Shown here: piece by piece, positions 12,547-19,512 of the stretch
How the letters are laid out: every line of letters starts with the position of its first letter
How positions within the stretch are numbered: position 1 is the stretch's first letter
Assembly (NCBI GenBank): GCA_947504705.1
Contig: CANNIA010000037.1
Span: 1 to 35,830 of the forward strand
Origin: Paracoccaceae bacterium
GTDB lineage: Bacteria; Pseudomonadota; Alphaproteobacteria; Rhodobacterales; Rhodobacteraceae
DNA length: 35,830 nt
Reading direction: 5' to 3'
Translations under genes and position numbers: made by a program
The notes under the pieces: model-generated
Told to the model about the DNA's origin: nothing
The model's database searches: none
Seen by the model: only the letters and a program-made list of their open reading frames with translations

Positions 12547-13725
12547 ATGGCGTTTCCTGAGCGGTTTTCGAACCTGCCGGATTATGCGTTTCCGCGTCTG
12601 CGGAAGCTTCTGGACGCGCATGCGCCGGGCGGCGAACCCATTGCCATGACCATCGGCGAGCCGCGCCATGCGATGCCGGATTTCGTCGGCCCCATCCTTG
12701 CAACGAACCTGTCTGGCTTCGGCGTCTATCCCCCGAACGACGGCACACCCGAGCTTCTGGCGGCGATTTCCGGCTGGATCACCCGGCGCTATGGCGTTGA
12801 GATCACTGAAGATCACCTGATGGTTCTGAATGGCACGCGGGAAGGTCTGTTCAACGCGGTCGTAGCACTTTGCCCCGAAACCAAGGGCGGCAAGAAGCCT
12901 GTCGTCCTGATGCCGAACCCGTTCTATCAGGTCTACGCCGTGGCCGCGCTGACCGTGGGGGCAGAGCCGGTCTATGTCCCCGCCACCGCCGCCACTGGAT
13001 TCCTGCCCGACTATGGCAGCCTGCCCAAGGACATCCTTGACCGCACCGCGCTGGCCTTCATCTGCTCGCCCGCGAACCCGCAGGGGGCTGTCGCCTCAGT
13101 CGACTATCTTACCGATCTGCTGGCCCTGGCCGAGACGCACGACTTCCGCGTCCTTGCCGACGAATGCTATTCGGAAATCTGGCGCGATGCCCCGCCGCCC
13201 GGCCTTCTGCAGGTCACCAAGGCGCAGGGAGCCGACCCGGAACGCGCTTTGGTGTTCCATTCCCTGTCCAAACGGTCAAACCTGCCGGGCCTGCGCTCGG
13301 GCTTCGTGGCCGCAGGTCCGGAGTGCATGTCCCGCATCCGCAAGCTGCGCGCCTTTGCCGGTGCGCCCATTCCGCTGCCTCTGCAACGGGTGGCCGAGGC
13401 GGCTTGGGCGGATGAGGCACATGTCACCGCCAGCCGCGCGCTTTACCATCGGAAATTCGCCGATGCCGACCGCATCTTCGCGGGGTTACAGGGCTATCAA
13501 GCCCCCGCCGGCGGGTTTTTCCTGTGGCTGCCGGTCGAAGACGGTGAACAGGCGACGATGAAATTGTGGCGCGAAACGGGGGTCCGGGTTCTGCCCGGCG
13601 CTTACCTGTCGCGCGATGTCGGGGGCGACAATCCCGGCAAAGGTTATATCCGCGTGGCGCTTGTTGCTACGCCAGAAGAAACGCAGCGCGGGCTGACTTT
13701 GCTGCGCGACTGCATTTACAGGTGA
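12547..13725 (+). CDS. Class I/II PLP-dependent aminotransferase (DapC-like)
   Basis: This 392-residue fold-type I aminotransferase has [18 protein letters not shown] (Asp/Tyr contacting PLP) and [15 protein letters not shown] with the Schiff-base Lys, plus the C-terminal substrate Arg in YIRVAL. The overall pattern ([20 protein letters not shown]) resembles succinyl-diaminopimelate aminotransferases of the DapC type, which would place it in lysine/peptidoglycan precursor synthesis. This is inference; other amino-acid substrates are possible. The ATG at 12547 has TTGAGG upstream. Its stop is only 8 bp before ftsK, whose ribosome binding site begins at the aminotransferase stop codon, so the two are probably cotranscribed. 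Confidence 0.85.
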
Positions 13726-13733
13726 GGGCAGAC

Positions 13734-16724
13734 ATGGCTTCCTATCAGGCACGGCAGCGCGAACCGCTTCTGGACCGAGGCACGCAGGCAATGCTGGAAC
13801 GCCGCGGGCGTGAGCTTCTGGGTCTGGCCCTTGGCCTTGCCGCCGCCAGCCTTGCCCTGATCTTGTATAGCTATTCGCCGGAAGACCCCGGCTGGATGGT
13901 CGTCTCGGACGAACCCACCCGTAACATCTTTGGCCAATTCGGCGCAGCCGTCGCCTCGACCCTGATGATCCTGATCGGGCTGGGGGCGTGGAGCATTCCG
14001 CTGATCATCGTTGCCTGGGCTGTGCGCTTTCTTTTCCACATCGGCGGCGAGCGTGCCCTTGGCCGTGTCGTCTTTGCCGTGATCGCGGTGGCCTTTGCTG
14101 CTGTCCATTGTGCAACCCTTGTGCCCGGTGACGCTTGGGCACAGACCTTCGGGCTGGGCGGGCTTTTCGGTGACACGGTGCTTGGATCGCTGATCGGGGT
14201 GATGCCGGGGTCTGCCGGGTTCGGGTTGAAGGTTCTGTCGGTCCTGACCCTGGGCGGGCTGATCCTGTTCCTTCTGTTCGTGACCGGCTTCAACGCCAAC
14301 GAGCTGACCGCAACCCGTCGCTTCCTGATGCTCGGGGCGGTGCTTTCCTATGACGCTCTGCGTCGCGGCCTTGGCATTGGCGCGCGAGGGGCGGCACGTG
14401 GAGCGATTGCCCTACAGGAACGCGCCCGCAACCGTACGGCAGAGGCACCCGCGCAAGATTACGGCGTGGCCGCGCTGCGCCGGGTTGTGCCACCCGTTGT
14501 TGGTGGACAGCGGGCGATGACGCCCGAACCCCTGCAGGCCAATCCGCGCGCGATGTCGTCTGCGACCGCGCCCCGTTTGGCCTCTCCAATCGAGCCTCAA
14601 CCCGCTTCTCCCGCTGCACGTGGGCCCGATACCCTGCGCGAGAAGATCGGTTTCCTGGCCCGCCTGCGCCGCTCTCCGGCACCCGAGCCTGAACCTGAAC
14701 GCGAGTTGATCGAGCCAGAACCCGTGGCCTATTGGGATCCCTCGATGCCGCAGGAGGAACGGATCAAGGCACGGATTTCCGACGTGATCCGCAGCCGCGT
14801 GCGCCGGGGTGCGGAAACAATCGCAGCACCGCTTGGCCGGATGGAACCGCCAGTGATGCGCCCGCGGGTCGAGCCCCTGCTGTCCAGCCCGCGCCCGGCC
14901 GTTGCATCGGCTGTGGCACCTCTGGCACCTGCAGCCCCTTTGATCCAGGGCCCCCTGACCGCCACGATGTGGGAAGCCGACGATCTTGACGAGATGGAAG
15001 AAGATGGTTCGCTGGCCAGCATCCTTGACGCTGCAAGCTCGGACTTGGAAGAGGCCGAAGATTTCGGCGCCGACGACCGGGACTATGCCGAGCAGGCCAG
15101 GCTTCATGCCGGCTTGGCAGATCGCCGTGCTGTCGTTCAGCATGCGGTTAAGAAACCCGCGCCTTCCCGCCGGGCCTTGGCCGAAAGCCAGCCCACGTTG
15201 CGCTTTGAAGAGCCGGTGTCAACCTATGAACTGCCGCCGCTTAGCCTGCTGTCCACCCCCGTCGCCATCCAGCGCGGCCAGCTTTCGGATGAAGCGCTGG
15301 AGGAAAACGCCCGGATGCTGGAATCGGTGCTGGACGACTATGGAATCAAGGGCGAAGTGACCGCTGTCCGCCCCGGCCCGGTTGTCACCATGTATGAACT
15401 TGAACCGGCACCAGGCCTGAAGGCCAGCCGGGTGATCGGCCTTGCCGACGATATCGCGCGTAGCATGTCGGCGCTGTCGGCCCGTGTCTCCACCGTTCCG
15501 GGTCGGACGGTGATCGGCATCGAACTGCCCAACGCGTATCGCGAAAAGGTGGTCCTGCGCGAGATACTCTCTGCCCGCGATTTCGGCGACAGCCAGATGC
15601 GCCTGCCTTTGGCCCTAGGCAAGGATATCGGCGGCGAGGCGGTCGTGGCGAACCTTGCCAAGATGCCCCACCTGCTGATTGCCGGCACCACCGGTTCAGG
15701 CAAATCGGTTGCGATCAACACGATGATCCTGTCGCTGCTTTACAAGCTGACGCCGGAAGAGTGCCGGTTGATCATGATCGACCCCAAGATGCTGGAACTC
15801 TCCGTCTATGACGGCATTCCGCATCTCCTCTCCCCCGTCGTGACCGACCCGAAAAAGGCCGTCGTCGCACTGAAATGGGTCGTCTCCGAGATGGAGGAAC
15901 GGTATCGCAAGATGTCCAAGATGGGCGTTCGTAACATCGAAGGCTATAACGGCCGCGTGCGCGAGGCGCTGGCCAAAGGCGAGATGTTCAAGCGCACCAT
16001 CCAGACCGGGTTCGAAGATGAAACCGGCGATCCGATCTTTGAGACGGATGAGTTCCAGCCCGTCGCCATCCCCTATATCGTGGTGGTGGTGGACGAGATG
16101 GCCGACCTGATGATGGTCGCGGGCAAGGAAATCGAAGCCTGCATCCAGCGTCTTGCGCAAATGGCCCGTGCCAGCGGTATCCACCTGATCATGGCCACCC
16201 AGCGGCCTTCGGTTGACGTGATCACCGGCACGATCAAAGCCAACTTCCCGACCCGGATTTCGTTTCAGGTCACCAGTAAGATCGACAGCCGCACCATCCT
16301 GGGTGAACAGGGGGCCGAGCAGCTTTTGGGCATGGGCGACATGCTTTACATGGGCAACGGGGCGAAGATCACCCGGATCCACGGGCCGTTTGTGTCTGAC
16401 GAGGAAGTTGAGGAAGTCGTCAACCACCTGAAATCTTTCGGCCCGCCGGTCTATATGTCGGGCGTCGTCGAAAGCCTGGATGACGAACGCGACAATGAAA
16501 TCGACGCGGTTCTTGGCCTCAATTCCGAAGGCGACGACACGCTTTACGATCAGGCCGTGGCCATTGTGGCGCGCGACCGCAAGTGTTCCACCTCCTACAT
16601 CCAGCGCAAACTGGGCATCGGCTATAACAAGGCCGCGCGTCTGGTTGAACAGATGGAAGACGAAAGCGTCGTCACCCGCGCCAACCATGTCGGCAAGCGC
16701 GAGATTTTGATCGAGGAGCGGTGA
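13734..16724 (+). CDS. ftsK: DNA translocase FtsK
   Basis: This 996-residue protein pumps chromosome DNA at the division septum and activates XerCD resolution at dif. The N-terminus (about 25-190) holds four or five membrane segments, for example [18 protein letters not shown]. Residues 200-560 are a variable Pro/Glu/Ala-rich linker. The motor follows with Walker [10 protein letters not shown] (650-658) and Walker [11 protein letters not shown] (783-792), then [19 protein letters not shown]. The C-terminal gamma winged helix (about 935-996) contains [15 protein letters not shown] and ends [15 protein letters not shown]. The ATG at 13734 has gaggg upstream. Its last 46 bases recur in degenerate form at about 17510-17555, beyond the HNH gene. 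Confidence 0.96.
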
Positions 16725-16760
16725 GGGTGCGGCCCATGCCAGCTAAGTCAGGTGAATTTC

Positions 16761-17420
16761 ATGACGAAACTCGAACTAAAGCACGATCTGAGAGAAATTA
16801 CTGACGACCACCTGATCGAAGATTTGCGCCGTGTTGCAACGGCCTTTTCCGATTCAATTCTTCGGCAGAGAGCCTACAAAGAACATGGCAATTTCGGCGT
16901 AACAACAGTCATTCGCCGGTTCGGGTCATGGAACAGCGCGATCAGATTGGCCGGACTCGATGTTACCGTCGAGAGAAACATCGACGACACGGAGCTCATG
17001 GAGAACCTGCGTAGGGTATGGGAACTGATGGGGCACCAACCAAAATATGGGGAAATGTCGCCACCAGCCTCAAGATATAACATTTCCACCTACGAGAGAA
17101 GGTTTGGGTCTTGGCGCAAAGCGCTTGAGCAATTTGTTCAATACGCGGAGGATCAAAGCATCAATTTGGTGGAACGCTCGGCGACCCTAGAGCAGACGTC
17201 AACGCGAGGGTCACGGAAGGTCGATCTGGCGATGCGGTTCAAAGTTCTGAAACGTGACGGTTATCGATGTGTAGTATGCGGTGCATCTCCAGCAATTTCA
17301 CCCGGCGTGGAACTGCACGTTGATCACATCATCCCTTACTCTCGGGGCGGAGAGTCCAGTGTGACGAACCTACAAACACTAGGCTCCAACTGTAATCAGG
17401 GAAAGAGCAACCGAGACTGA
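16761..17420 (+). CDS. HNH endonuclease with homing-type repeats
   Basis: This 219-residue protein has two N-terminal HNH_repeat (homing-endonuclease-associated) modules, each ending in a FGSW signature (FGSWNSAIRLAGL, then FGSWRKALEQF), joined to a C-terminal HNH nuclease. Zinc-type CVVC is at 170-173, catalytic HVDH at 186-189 and the Asn in SVTNLQ. The usual second CxxC pair is reduced to a single Cys (GSNCNQGK), so the zinc knuckle is incomplete. The ATG at 16761 with AGGTGA upstream is preferred to GTG 16752. Composition is clearly less GC-rich than the neighbours. It lies 36 bp after ftsK, in the gap where lolA would be expected, and is followed by an extra ftsK tail, so a transferred homing-type gene is likely. 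Confidence 0.85.
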   Translation: MTKLELKHDLREITDDHLIEDLRRVATAFSDSILRQRAYKEHGNFGVTTVIRRFGSWNSAIRLAGLDVTVERNIDDTELMENLRRVWELMGHQPKYGEMSPPASRYNISTYERRFGSWRKALEQFVQYAEDQSINLVERSATLEQTSTRGSRKVDLAMRFKVLKRDGYRCVVCGASPAISPGVELHVDHIIPYSRGGESSVTNLQTLGSNCNQGKSNRD

Positions 17421-17492
17421 TAAGAACCACATTAGTTTGGGTGCCGAAGGCCAACCTCTACAAGGGCTCGTAGGCAAAGCATTCGAAGTTTA

Positions 17493-17555
17493 GGCGAACT
17501 TTCGTTCACCCGCGCCAAAAATATCGGCAATCGCGAGTTCCTGATCGAAGGCCGA
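17493..17555 (+). pseudogene. Degenerate second copy of the ftsK 3' end
   Basis: This stretch reads GELSFTRAKNIGNREFLIEG in frame, against [18 protein letters not shown] at the true FtsK C-terminus. By hand alignment 37 of 46 bases match between 16671-16716 and 17506-17551. There is no stop at the equivalent place and no upstream ftsK sequence. It is a fossil tail left when the HNH-bearing segment, carrying its own ftsK end, was inserted, or an old attachment-site duplication. Confidence 0.75.
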
Positions 17556-17647
17556 GAGTGTCACGCCCCCTCACACAGACGCACATCCTTGCGAAGGTAT
17601 GGAACCCCGGGGGTGCAACCGGCCCGGCGGCTTGCTATATCAGGGGC

Positions 17648-18247
17648 ATGAACAGACGTTTCGCCCTTCTGGCCCCGCTTGCCCTGCTGCTGCCCTTTCC
17701 GGCGGCGGCCGATATCATTCCACTGTCGGACCTGTCGGATTACCTGAACGGGCTGACCACGCTGGAAACCGACTTCACCCAGGTGAATGCGGACGGCTCC
17801 ATCTCGACCGGCAAGATCTTTATCCAGCGTCCGGGCCGGGTGCGGTTCGAATACGCTCCGCCCGATGCAAGTCTGGTCATCGCCGGGGCCGGGTCGGTCG
17901 GGATTTTCGACGCCAAGTCGAACCAGCCGCCAGAGCGTTACCCGCTGAAGAAGACGCCCTTGAACCTGATCCTGGCCGACGACATCAACCTTGGTCAGGC
18001 CGACATGGTGATCGGGCATATCGACGATGGCACCTCGACCCGGGTGCTGGCGCAGGACCCGGAATACCCCGAATATGGCACGATCGAACTGGTGTTCACC
18101 GCCGACCCTATCCAGCTTCGGCAATGGGTGATCACGGATGATCTTGGCACCCAGACCACGGTGATTCTGGGCGAGTTGACGGAGGGCGGAAAGCTTGACC
18201 CCTTCCTGTTCGACATCGCAGCCGAGACTGAAAAGCGGGCGAACTAG
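17648..18247 (+). CDS. lolA: Outer-membrane lipoprotein carrier protein LolA
   Basis: This 199-residue periplasmic chaperone carries lipoproteins from the LolCDE transporter to the outer membrane. A signal peptide (MNRRFALLAPLALLLPFPAA, cleavage before about Asp22) is followed by the LolA pattern: LTTLETDFTQVNADGSIS, GKIFIQRPGRVRFEY and later ADPIQLRQWVITD. The ATG at 17648 has aggggc directly upstream. It follows ftsK in the usual order for this group but is separated by the HNH insertion and ftsK fossil, so it may need its own promoter. It is followed at once by a long inverted repeat. Confidence 0.9.
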   Translation: MNRRFALLAPLALLLPFPAAADIIPLSDLSDYLNGLTTLETDFTQVNADGSISTGKIFIQRPGRVRFEYAPPDASLVIAGAGSVGIFDAKSNQPPERYPLKKTPLNLILADDINLGQADMVIGHIDDGTSTRVLAQDPEYPEYGTIELVFTADPIQLRQWVITDDLGTQTTVILGELTEGGKLDPFLFDIAAETEKRAN

Positions 18248-18334
18248 AGCGGTTCAAGTTCTCGTTGAAACACCAAGCATAAGAATTCAAACACTCTTGG
18301 TTTGAATTCTGATTCAACATGAACTTGAACCGCT
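18248..18334. repeat. 87-bp nested inverted repeat between lolA and transglycosylase
   Basis: Three successive arm blocks mirror each other: agcggttcaagttc / gaacttgaaccgct at the ends, gttgaa / ttcaac inside, and agaattcaaac / gtttgaattct at the core, with a seven-base loop. The left arm has an extra about 11 bases. It begins right after the lolA stop and ends before the converging gene's stop, so it can act as a two-way terminator. The structure also suits a small non-autonomous palindromic repeat (MITE/REP-like). Confidence 0.75.
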
Positions 18335-18342
18335 TTAACGCC

Positions 18343-18924
18343 TTACCGGCAATAGGCCAGCTGCTGGCCGTACATCTCGGACCGCGCACCAACCTTGGTG
18401 GCAACTTCGACCAGCCAGGGCTTGTCGAGGTAGCTGCCGTCGGCATAACCCGAGCGCCCCTCGTGATAAGCCAGATACTGCGCTTCGGCGTCGGTTTTCG
18501 AGATTCCAAGCTTGGTGCTGGATTCGTCCATGTACCAGCCCATGAAATCGGTCGCGTCGCCAATGTCGTCACGCTTGGCGCGCCGCCCGCCTGCCGTCGC
18601 CTGATACTCCTCCCATGTGGCATTCAGTGCCTGGCTATAGCCATAGGCCGTGCTTTGCCGCCCCATCGGGATCACGCCCAGCACAAAGGAATAAGGCGTG
18701 CGCGCGTTGCCGATGAATTTCGATTCCTGATAGATCACCGCCATCTGCACGCTGACGGGAATGCCCCAGCGCCGCTCGGTCGCGGCCATCGCCCGCATGT
18801 ACTGCGGACGTTCGCGGATGATCGCACAGGCGTCATCCATGTTACGGGGCGCCGCAAAATCGCCTCGCCCCCCGCAGGAGGCCAGAAACACCAACATCAG
18901 CGACGCACGGAGAAACCTGCTCAT
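18343..18924 (-). CDS. Lipoprotein with lytic transglycosylase (SLT-like) domain
   Basis: This 193-residue exported lipoprotein has a signal ending in the lipobox LVFLASCGG (Cys17 lipidated). The mature part contains AVIYQESKF, with the Glu placed like the catalytic Glu of SLT transglycosylases, and YGYSQALNATWEEYQ, matching the family's Gly-Tyr-(S/G)-Q-x...W block. It probably trims peptidoglycan from the outer-membrane side. RRAKRDDIGDATDFMGWY and YLAYHEGRSGY complete the conserved core. It converges on lolA across the nested inverted repeat; a 201-bp divergent region separates it from hspQ. Confidence 0.8.
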   Translation of the reverse strand: MSRFLRASLMLVFLASCGGRGDFAAPRNMDDACAIIRERPQYMRAMAATERRWGIPVSVQMAVIYQESKFIGNARTPYSFVLGVIPMGRQSTAYGYSQALNATWEEYQATAGGRRAKRDDIGDATDFMGWYMDESSTKLGISKTDAEAQYLAYHEGRSGYADGSYLDKPWLVEVATKVGARSEMYGQQLAYCR

Positions 18925-19125
18925 TTGCCCCTCGTGCCTTTTTTCATTTTCCAGGAAGCTACCGCATTCCGACGCCGCTGGGAATGGGGAAGTCCTTACC
19001 TTTGATCAGAAATCCGCGATGGCTGGACTGTCCAGATCGGAACACAAGACTGTTTCTTGTTCTGCCCGCCAGAATAATGGACAATATTTCCTGCCGCGCG
19101 TAATTGGAATCATGGAAACCGCCGC

Positions 19126-19452
19126 ATGCTGACATCCCGCGCCAAATATCACCTGGGTCAGGTGCTTCGTCACAAGAAGCATCCGTTCCGTGGCGTGGTT
19201 TTCGATGTCGATGCCATGTTCTCGAACACCGACGAATGGTACGAGAACATCCCCGAGGACAGCCGTCCCCGCAAGGATCAGCCGTTCTACCACCTTCTGG
19301 CCGAGAATGACCAAAGCTACTATGTGGCCTATGTCTCGGAACAGAACCTCGTGCCCGATGAAACCGGTGAGCCGGTCGATCACCCCGACCTTGGCGATCT
19401 TTTCGGTGATTTCGAGGATGGCTTCTATCCGGTGACCTTCCAGCTGAATTGA
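19126..19452 (+). CDS. hspQ: Heat shock protein HspQ
   Basis: This 108-residue HspQ (YccV) family protein is known as a hemimethylated-oriC binding factor and Lon specificity enhancer. The family signature RAKYHLGQVLRHKKHPFRGV, then VFDVDAMF, and YYVAYVSEQNL are all present, and length matches the family. The ATG at 19126 lacks a strong Shine-Dalgarno (tggaaac only). It is preceded by a 200-bp intergenic region shared with the divergent lipoprotein gene. A heat-shock sigma promoter is expected, but no confident match was found. Confidence 0.93.
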   Translation: MLTSRAKYHLGQVLRHKKHPFRGVVFDVDAMFSNTDEWYENIPEDSRPRKDQPFYHLLAENDQSYYVAYVSEQNLVPDETGEPVDHPDLGDLFGDFEDGFYPVTFQLN

Positions 19453-19512
19453 CGGTTACGGGTTGCTAACGCTTTGGCCTTAGCCTTCAGGCAAATCGCC
19501 AAGGAGGCCTCC

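Follow-up and report, generated by a model that had tools for sequence, protein, structure and literature searches.

A displaced ftsK end behind an HNH gene in a Paracoccaceae genome, and passenger genes that may dock at the last codons of host genes

We analysed a 35,830-nt stretch of DNA (hereafter the window), which is the entire contig CANNIA010000037.1 of the 3.72-Mb genome of a Paracoccaceae bacterium (GenBank assembly GCA_947504705.1). In this window ftsK is separated from lolA by an HNH gene and by a second copy of its own 3' end. The features of the locus, in window positions, are as follows.

13734..16724, forward strand: ftsK, 996 aa, complete, with FtsK_4TM, alpha, motor and gamma domains
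16672..16717, forward strand: present, functional ftsK tail, the reference copy of the repeat (from direct-repeat and pairwise comparison)
16725..17505, forward strand: inserted segment of about 780 bp, without alignment to the uninterrupted spacer; GC 0.51-0.52
16761..17420, forward strand: HNH gene, 219 aa, with two HNH_repeat domains and an HNH domain; the Cys208 of the family is Gly
17506..17551, forward strand: fossil of the original ftsK 3' end, a repeat of the ftsK tail that has lost the stop codon
17552..17647, forward strand: original ftsK-lolA spacer, homologous to the spacer of the uninterrupted reference G030a (L013)
17648..18247, forward strand: lolA, the original downstream neighbour of ftsK

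The left limit of the insert is uncertain: the reading favoured below places the insert's own ftsK tail to the left of 16725.

The ftsK-tail repeat was the longest direct repeat family in positions 13000-19500 (43 nt, 84%), and comparison over 46 nt showed 37/46 identical positions between 16672-16717 and 17506-17551. In the frame of ftsK the downstream copy reads RAKNIGNREFLIEG. GC content in 500-base steps was 0.59-0.67 in ftsK, 0.51-0.52 in the HNH gene and 0.61-0.62 in lolA. The HNH gene was the only gene seen between the two tails, with no integrase. For comparison, 140 ftsK 3' flanks were taken (32 from the genus of the window, 108 from the family), of which one was too short, and in the remaining 139 the last 180 nt of ftsK were locally aligned with their own downstream DNA (at least 1000 nt in 137, maximum 3000). 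The null of 278 comparisons, built from the reverse strand and from shuffles of the 139 flanks, had a 99th percentile of 32 and a maximum of 39, and the window scored 52. The initial annotation, made from the window's sequence alone, had described a tail recurring at 37/46 by hand count on both sides of a lower-GC HNH gene with two homing-associated repeats. The computed comparison, the null scores, the GC values and two PF18780 matches all agreed with that description; its coordinates held for the right copy (17506-17551), and the left copy starts one base later than given, at 16672 rather than 16671.

An uninterrupted counterpart was found in the genus, where 31 of the 32 genomes searched had ftsK. 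In this reference, G030a (genome G030, locus L013, contig C129), lolA lies about 90 nt behind ftsK without an insert. The DNA behind the window fossil aligned through the G030a spacer into lolA with a local score of 155, whereas the DNA behind the present ftsK scored only 12 against the same spacer; about 780 bp therefore entered ahead of the old ftsK end. By this alignment, what lies downstream is the original 3' end of ftsK with the old ftsK-lolA spacer still attached to it, as the initial annotation had supposed in calling it a fossil. The window thus holds an insertion, an intact ftsK and a fossil in its ancestral place. The old end is retained 3' of the passenger and the working end is homologous and in frame, so that an endonuclease open reading frame (ORF) lies between an in-frame upstream tail copy and a displaced native one. 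The fossil differs from the present tail at 9 positions, spread 4/1/4 over the codon positions, and the differences alter the amino acid in 5/14 complete codons. This pattern indicates that the fossil is free of coding constraint and decays freely.

The same interval was occupied differently in most of the genus. A Pkinase gene lies at most 1.5 kb behind ftsK in 24/29 other genus loci (L003-L031) and is absent behind ftsK in the window and in G030a. Where lolA was reached behind the kinase, it lay about 1.4-5.4 kb from ftsK, and no second ftsK tail was found near lolA in the kinase-type loci at E up to 1. The kinase genes mean that the ftsK-lolA interval took other insertions too, and in the genus of the window this interval looks like an insertion hotspot. 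G030 itself carries two ftsK types on separate contigs (C129 and C23, the kinase-type one being the second) and is perhaps a mixed assembly, which leaves the spacer alignment unaffected.

Duplicated tails were present in 3/139 flanks: those of G152 (L052, score 241), G021 (L024, score 82) and the window (score 52). The next-best flank scored 39, equal to the null maximum. G021 belongs to the genus of the window and G152 to another genus. The layout recurs in these two genomes with a different passenger, a common gene of 156-160 aa (ORF156, 61% identical) which is the one gene of each insert, without nuclease or integrase. ORF156 had no Pfam match reaching the cut-off. It occurred in 1/394 family genomes (G152; G021 was outside that draw), and in 1/4 genomes of the G152 genus; of 159 ftsK loci, only the G021 and G152 ones contained it. 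Plasmid and phage records gave no ORF156 at E 0.01, and the 18 pattern stretches in viral contigs included no relative of it; the order-level search (0/292) was run without a positive control and is hence uninformative. The family and order draws included only a few genomes from the genus of the window (two in the family draw), and for the bulk of that genus the search for ORF156 covered ftsK flanks only. That so rare a gene stands twice at an ftsK end with a tail copy suggests that a tail-linked unit was transferred.

The G152 tails differ at 19/165 nt, distributed 3/1/15 over the codon positions, and 15/16 differences are synonymous when the edge codon and the stop are excluded. At least 15/19 differences at third positions would occur with a probability of 6e-5 if all positions were equal. 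Such near-synonymous differences favour an imported tail, in which case the two G152 copies would be working ftsK ends of different lineages. The G021 fossil differs at 43/137 nt (13/13/17 by codon position), as free decay would give. By these patterns of divergence G152, G021 and the window look like young, middle and old stages. The duplicated stretches vary in length (43-46, 121 and 164 nt) and are all diverged, with no identical core of fixed length, which fits homology rather than a fixed attachment (att) core. In a coarse search of 80 further family genomes, 76 gave a tail match and none a second match on the same contig (in G297 a second match lay on another contig); this search is blind to a fossil as short as that of the window.

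A baseline scan of gene tails extended the pattern to another gene. Among 555 ORFs of at least 150 aa from the loci in hand, a non-random draw, six tails scored at least 46: ftsK of the window, ftsK of G021, an enoyl-CoA hydratase gene in each of L103 and L104, and two matches in L117 (a repeat) and L233 (probably a spurious ORF) that we judged artefacts. The scan missed ftsK of G152 in L233 (score 241) and therefore undercounts. In L103 (Calditrichaeota bacterium AABM5.125.24) and L104 (Candidatus Hatepunaea meridiana; phylum Electryoneota in NCBI), both of which belong to a set of 63 loci with relatives of the HNH gene, the last codons of the hydratase recur behind HicA-HicB genes. We then sampled 39 genomes of the phylum, 13 of which had the hydratase at E up to 1e-70, and compared all 13 flanks (that of L258 covers 904 nt only). 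Tail copies were found in 4/13 genomes, with scores of 104, 71, 65 and 58; the nine flanks without copies scored at most 28, and reverse-strand controls 17-31. A biotin-carboxylase gene stands directly behind the hydratase in 3/9 of the genomes without tail copies. The four arrays, and a palindrome discussed below, are arranged as follows.

L103: gene-HicAB1-tail-tail-HNH-carboxylase
L104: gene-HicAB2-MqsA-like-tail-HicB-HNH-carboxylase (the MqsA-like match is below the Pfam cut-off)
L253: gene-HicAB2-tail-HicAB1-tail
L254: gene-HicAB1-tail-HicAB2-tail
L103:1562 and 1772, L104:4679, L254:1915, reverse strand: palindrome TTCCnGCGAArGCnGGAA, with a variant in L253

Tail copies within the arrays scored 48-102 against shuffle maxima of 28-38 (five shuffles each), and L254 has a further hydratase-tail-like stretch at +1229 (score 43). 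The order of HicAB1 and HicAB2 is swapped between L253 and L254. Both of these loci have further ORFs ahead of the carboxylase, one ending in or being HicB, and by eye, without a scan, no integrase was seen among them. HicAB1 and HicAB2 are 83-91% identical across genomes and the hydratases 69-77%, so the passengers are either younger than the genome split or slower-evolving. The 12 nt ahead of HicA agree at 12/12 positions among three HicAB2 units and at 8-11/12 among three HicAB1 units, but at only 2-3/12 between the two classes; this holds for working gene ends and internal tail copies alike. The hydratase ends in WVK and stop ahead of HicAB2, and in WV and stop ahead of HicAB1. Across the six units compared, the stop-codon region of the hydratase travels with the passenger. 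The palindrome, with matching changes in both arms, lies behind the outermost hydratase tails in all four genomes, as expected of a displaced original end with its own spacer. The array genomes are few and related, and we therefore count them as one lineage of events.

The common denominator of these loci is that the end of a host gene flanks the passenger on both sides and that no integrase was recognised in the inserts. We think it fairly probable that passengers arrive attached to the last codons of a host gene and dock by homology without an integrase. In the window, the incoming DNA would have carried the ftsK end of a close relative together with the HNH gene and would have recombined with the resident ftsK in a one-sided, homology-facilitated event. 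The left side would be anchored by ftsK homology, and the right join would be non-homologous or very short, placed ahead of the final 46-60 bp of the resident ftsK or slightly within them. The resident gene would thereby swap its last codons for the incoming ones with the frame kept, and the old end, pushed downstream, would then decay; the HNH enzyme may have helped by cutting. A tail-passenger-tail unit would possess two homology arms, with which it could later move to similar genes by ordinary recombination.

Several observations weigh against docking by an imported tail. The present tail of the window matches its nearest relative, G030a, at 43/46 positions, and third positions of the two genes agree at 36/40 in the last 40 codons and at 12/20 in the preceding 20. 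The tail is thus not visibly foreign, and a close donor and a local duplication would both fit it. One-sided recombination leaves no scar traceable here. The codon test for G152 gave only 0.10 under a model with one constrained and one free copy, and the spacers of three congeners match neither tail side of G152. The HNH gene of L103 and L104 is not placed between hydratase tails but outside the outermost one and its palindrome, and HNH is therefore not claimed as the cause of the arrays. Finally, the three ftsK cases may have arisen in different ways. Two further comparisons of provenance were neutral. The fossil matches the nearest uninterrupted relatives at 38/46 and the present tail at 37/46, a tie; as the tail hardly varies within the genus, this comparison says nothing about a foreign origin. 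When third-position identity is followed along ftsK, G030a leads in most segments of codons 447-796 and G006 or G014 in 797-946, with G030a narrowly ahead in 947-996; with high divergence and no clean breakpoint at the tail, no import was inferred from this mosaic test.

The HNH gene itself might point to another course of events. Its 219-aa product has two PF18780 'homing endonuclease associated' repeats and PF01844, and keeps D188, H189 and N203 of the HNH residues. Position 208 is Gly, while it is Cys in 54/54 other aligned relatives (54 of 63 loci; L074 was dropped for an in-frame stop and 8 were not aligned). The window protein therefore does not have the complete cysteine pairs typical of the family, which we take to be zinc ligands. 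Homing would mean that an uninterrupted ftsK was cleaved by the HNH enzyme close to the end of the gene, that repair copied the HNH gene and co-converted ftsK, and that activity was later lost. The domains fit this, as does the loss of the conserved Cys, which would be natural in a decaying, fixed homing gene. The gene is also mobile, with its closest relatives found in distant taxa (52% to a Nitrospira protein), and fungal mitochondria provide a precedent with the same layout (PMC3630166).

Nevertheless, we regard homing as unlikely. The HNH gene stands at ftsK in the window only (1/159 ftsK-bearing loci, some overlapping), and a full-length relative occurs in 2/394 family genomes, window included, the other adjoining carB, and in 1/390 of the order-level draw. 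Simple homing between two ftsK alleles should leave no second tail, and G021 and G152 show the same layout at ftsK without a nuclease. Of the 63 loci with HNH relatives, 59 were given to a DNA flank comparison (without L110, L114, L120 and L131), of which L085 was too short and 58 were tested, and 58 to a translated comparison, of which L083 was too short and 57 were tested. In the translated comparison, 0/57 other loci of the family had a recognisable tail of the host gene flanking HNH on each side. Six of the 57 exceeded the null maximum of 56; the window itself reached only 61, so short fossils could escape this test. Direct repeats in the flanks at L117, L113, L132, L083, L084, L079, L108, L087, L102 and a few weaker ones were judged non-coding or low-complexity from the printed alignments. 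The interpretation in the initial annotation therefore stands for the old end beside the old spacer and the present end left of the insert, and finds no support for the endonuclease as the cause, given that the HNH gene was found at ftsK in the window only, that a non-nuclease gene shows the same layout and that 0/57 HNH loci share it. The further HNH_repeat genes beside ftsK with a duplicated tail, for which it had proposed a search, were absent outside the window in the 159 ftsK loci.

A purely local event seems to us quite improbable. In that case a staggered break would have been repaired illegitimately, with the HNH gene entering there, and fill-in would have duplicated the native tail, like a target-site duplication, with no ftsK import. 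This is compatible with the window, whose present tail is not visibly foreign and is close to that of the sister genome, and whose duplicated stretch is short. However, the G152 tails differ like two separate working ftsK genes (only moderate evidence against a half-constrained model), and the hydratase stop-codon region goes with the passenger; a local duplication would be expected to produce neither.

A remnant of a larger integrase-type island with the ftsK 3' end as its attachment site is very improbable. Such islands carry and restore a gene end, and streptococcal integrative and conjugative elements (ICEs) do use ftsK, but at its 5' end (PMC4701971). HNH is the only gene seen in the insert, the repeats have no fixed core, and G021 and G152 share a one-gene content without integrase that two independent decays would hardly give; the one-gene inserts and the lack of a fixed core repeat also told against the decayed element attached at ftsK that had been offered earlier as an alternative. 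Chance similarity, for which only the shortness of the repeat speaks, can be dismissed, as the score lies above all 278 nulls and the copy exactly adjoins the conserved spacer.

Some features of the HNH relatives and of the window were noted in passing. In L033, L090 and L091 the closest relatives within the family lie tail-to-tail with carB, a few bases from its 3' end (clearest in L090), and the translated flank comparison found no second carB tail beside HNH in L090 or L091. Similar repeats flank the HNH relatives of L083 and L084 (Treponema/Spirochaetes contigs), and may resemble integron cassette sites. In L102, L094 and L127 (Clostridia-type contigs) the relatives have a common motif around GTGGAGACGGT on either side, which may mark the ends of another element. 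In the window, an imperfect inverted repeat at 18245-18337 (28-nt arms, 86% complementary, with a nested 14-nt pair) sits between lolA and the convergent gene 18343-18924.

In anatomy, the nearest match to the window is the mobile ORFs of fungal mitochondria. These carry a foreign C-terminus for atp6, atp9, cox2 and nad3 in Glomus and for atp6 in Allomyces, and the native ends of atp6 and cox2 are reported as not expressed (PMC3630166). Both systems combine an endonuclease gene at a gene end with a native end downstream, and the fungal replacement C-terminus would have its counterpart in the present tail of the window. The fungal ORFs are organellar with LAGLIDADG or GIY-YIG enzymes, whereas here the setting is a bacterial chromosome and an HNH-repeat gene, with passengers elsewhere that lack a nuclease. 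For gene-end displacement in type VI secretion system (T6SS) effector and Rhs genes, homology-facilitated illegitimate recombination has been proposed (PMC5361080), and conjugation in Escherichia coli is cited as a precedent for such recombination (PMC3240628). The likeness lies in a new 3' part with passenger, an orphaned old 3' part, and arrays, and would extend to the homology on one side, within a conserved stretch of the gene. T6SS and Rhs loci swap a variable toxin part; here it is a conserved housekeeping C-terminus, which would only dock the passenger. Streptococcal ICEs insert at the ends of genes without disrupting them (PMC4701971). Our loci likewise have gene-end direct repeats around the insert and an intact gene, but differ from the ICEs in that no integrase was seen, the insert is below 1 kb, and the repeats vary in length and divergence. 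Integron cassette arrays hold single-gene or toxin-antitoxin passengers between repeats, in an order that varies among genomes. The hydratase loci resemble them in their toxin-antitoxin passengers, separated by repeats and varying in order, and differ in that the repeat is the coding end of the host gene (33-67 nt, up to 82 nt). A narrowly worded search of open-licence literature turned up no example from a bacterial chromosome in which the end of a housekeeping gene serves as docking tag.

Taken as a class, these loci may, though we put this forward tentatively, represent passenger cassettes that lack an integrase and for which the final codons of a housekeeping gene in the host serve as address tag. 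Such a cassette would supply the C-terminus, push the earlier end and the passenger downstream, and, as tail-passenger-tail, spread and reshuffle between species by homologous recombination at the duplicated end; its cases would be ftsK in the alphaproteobacterial family of the window and enoyl-CoA hydratase in the phylum with Candidatus Hatepunaea (Electryoneota). If the proposal is true, a decayed copy of a gene tail a few hundred bases downstream would be a simple genome signature by which such insertions can be counted, dated and oriented. It would also explain why the last residues of a conserved gene can change with its neighbour; small genes and toxin-antitoxin pairs could spread with no help from an integrase, transposase or plasmid, and every conserved gene end would offer a potential docking site, even in essential genes.

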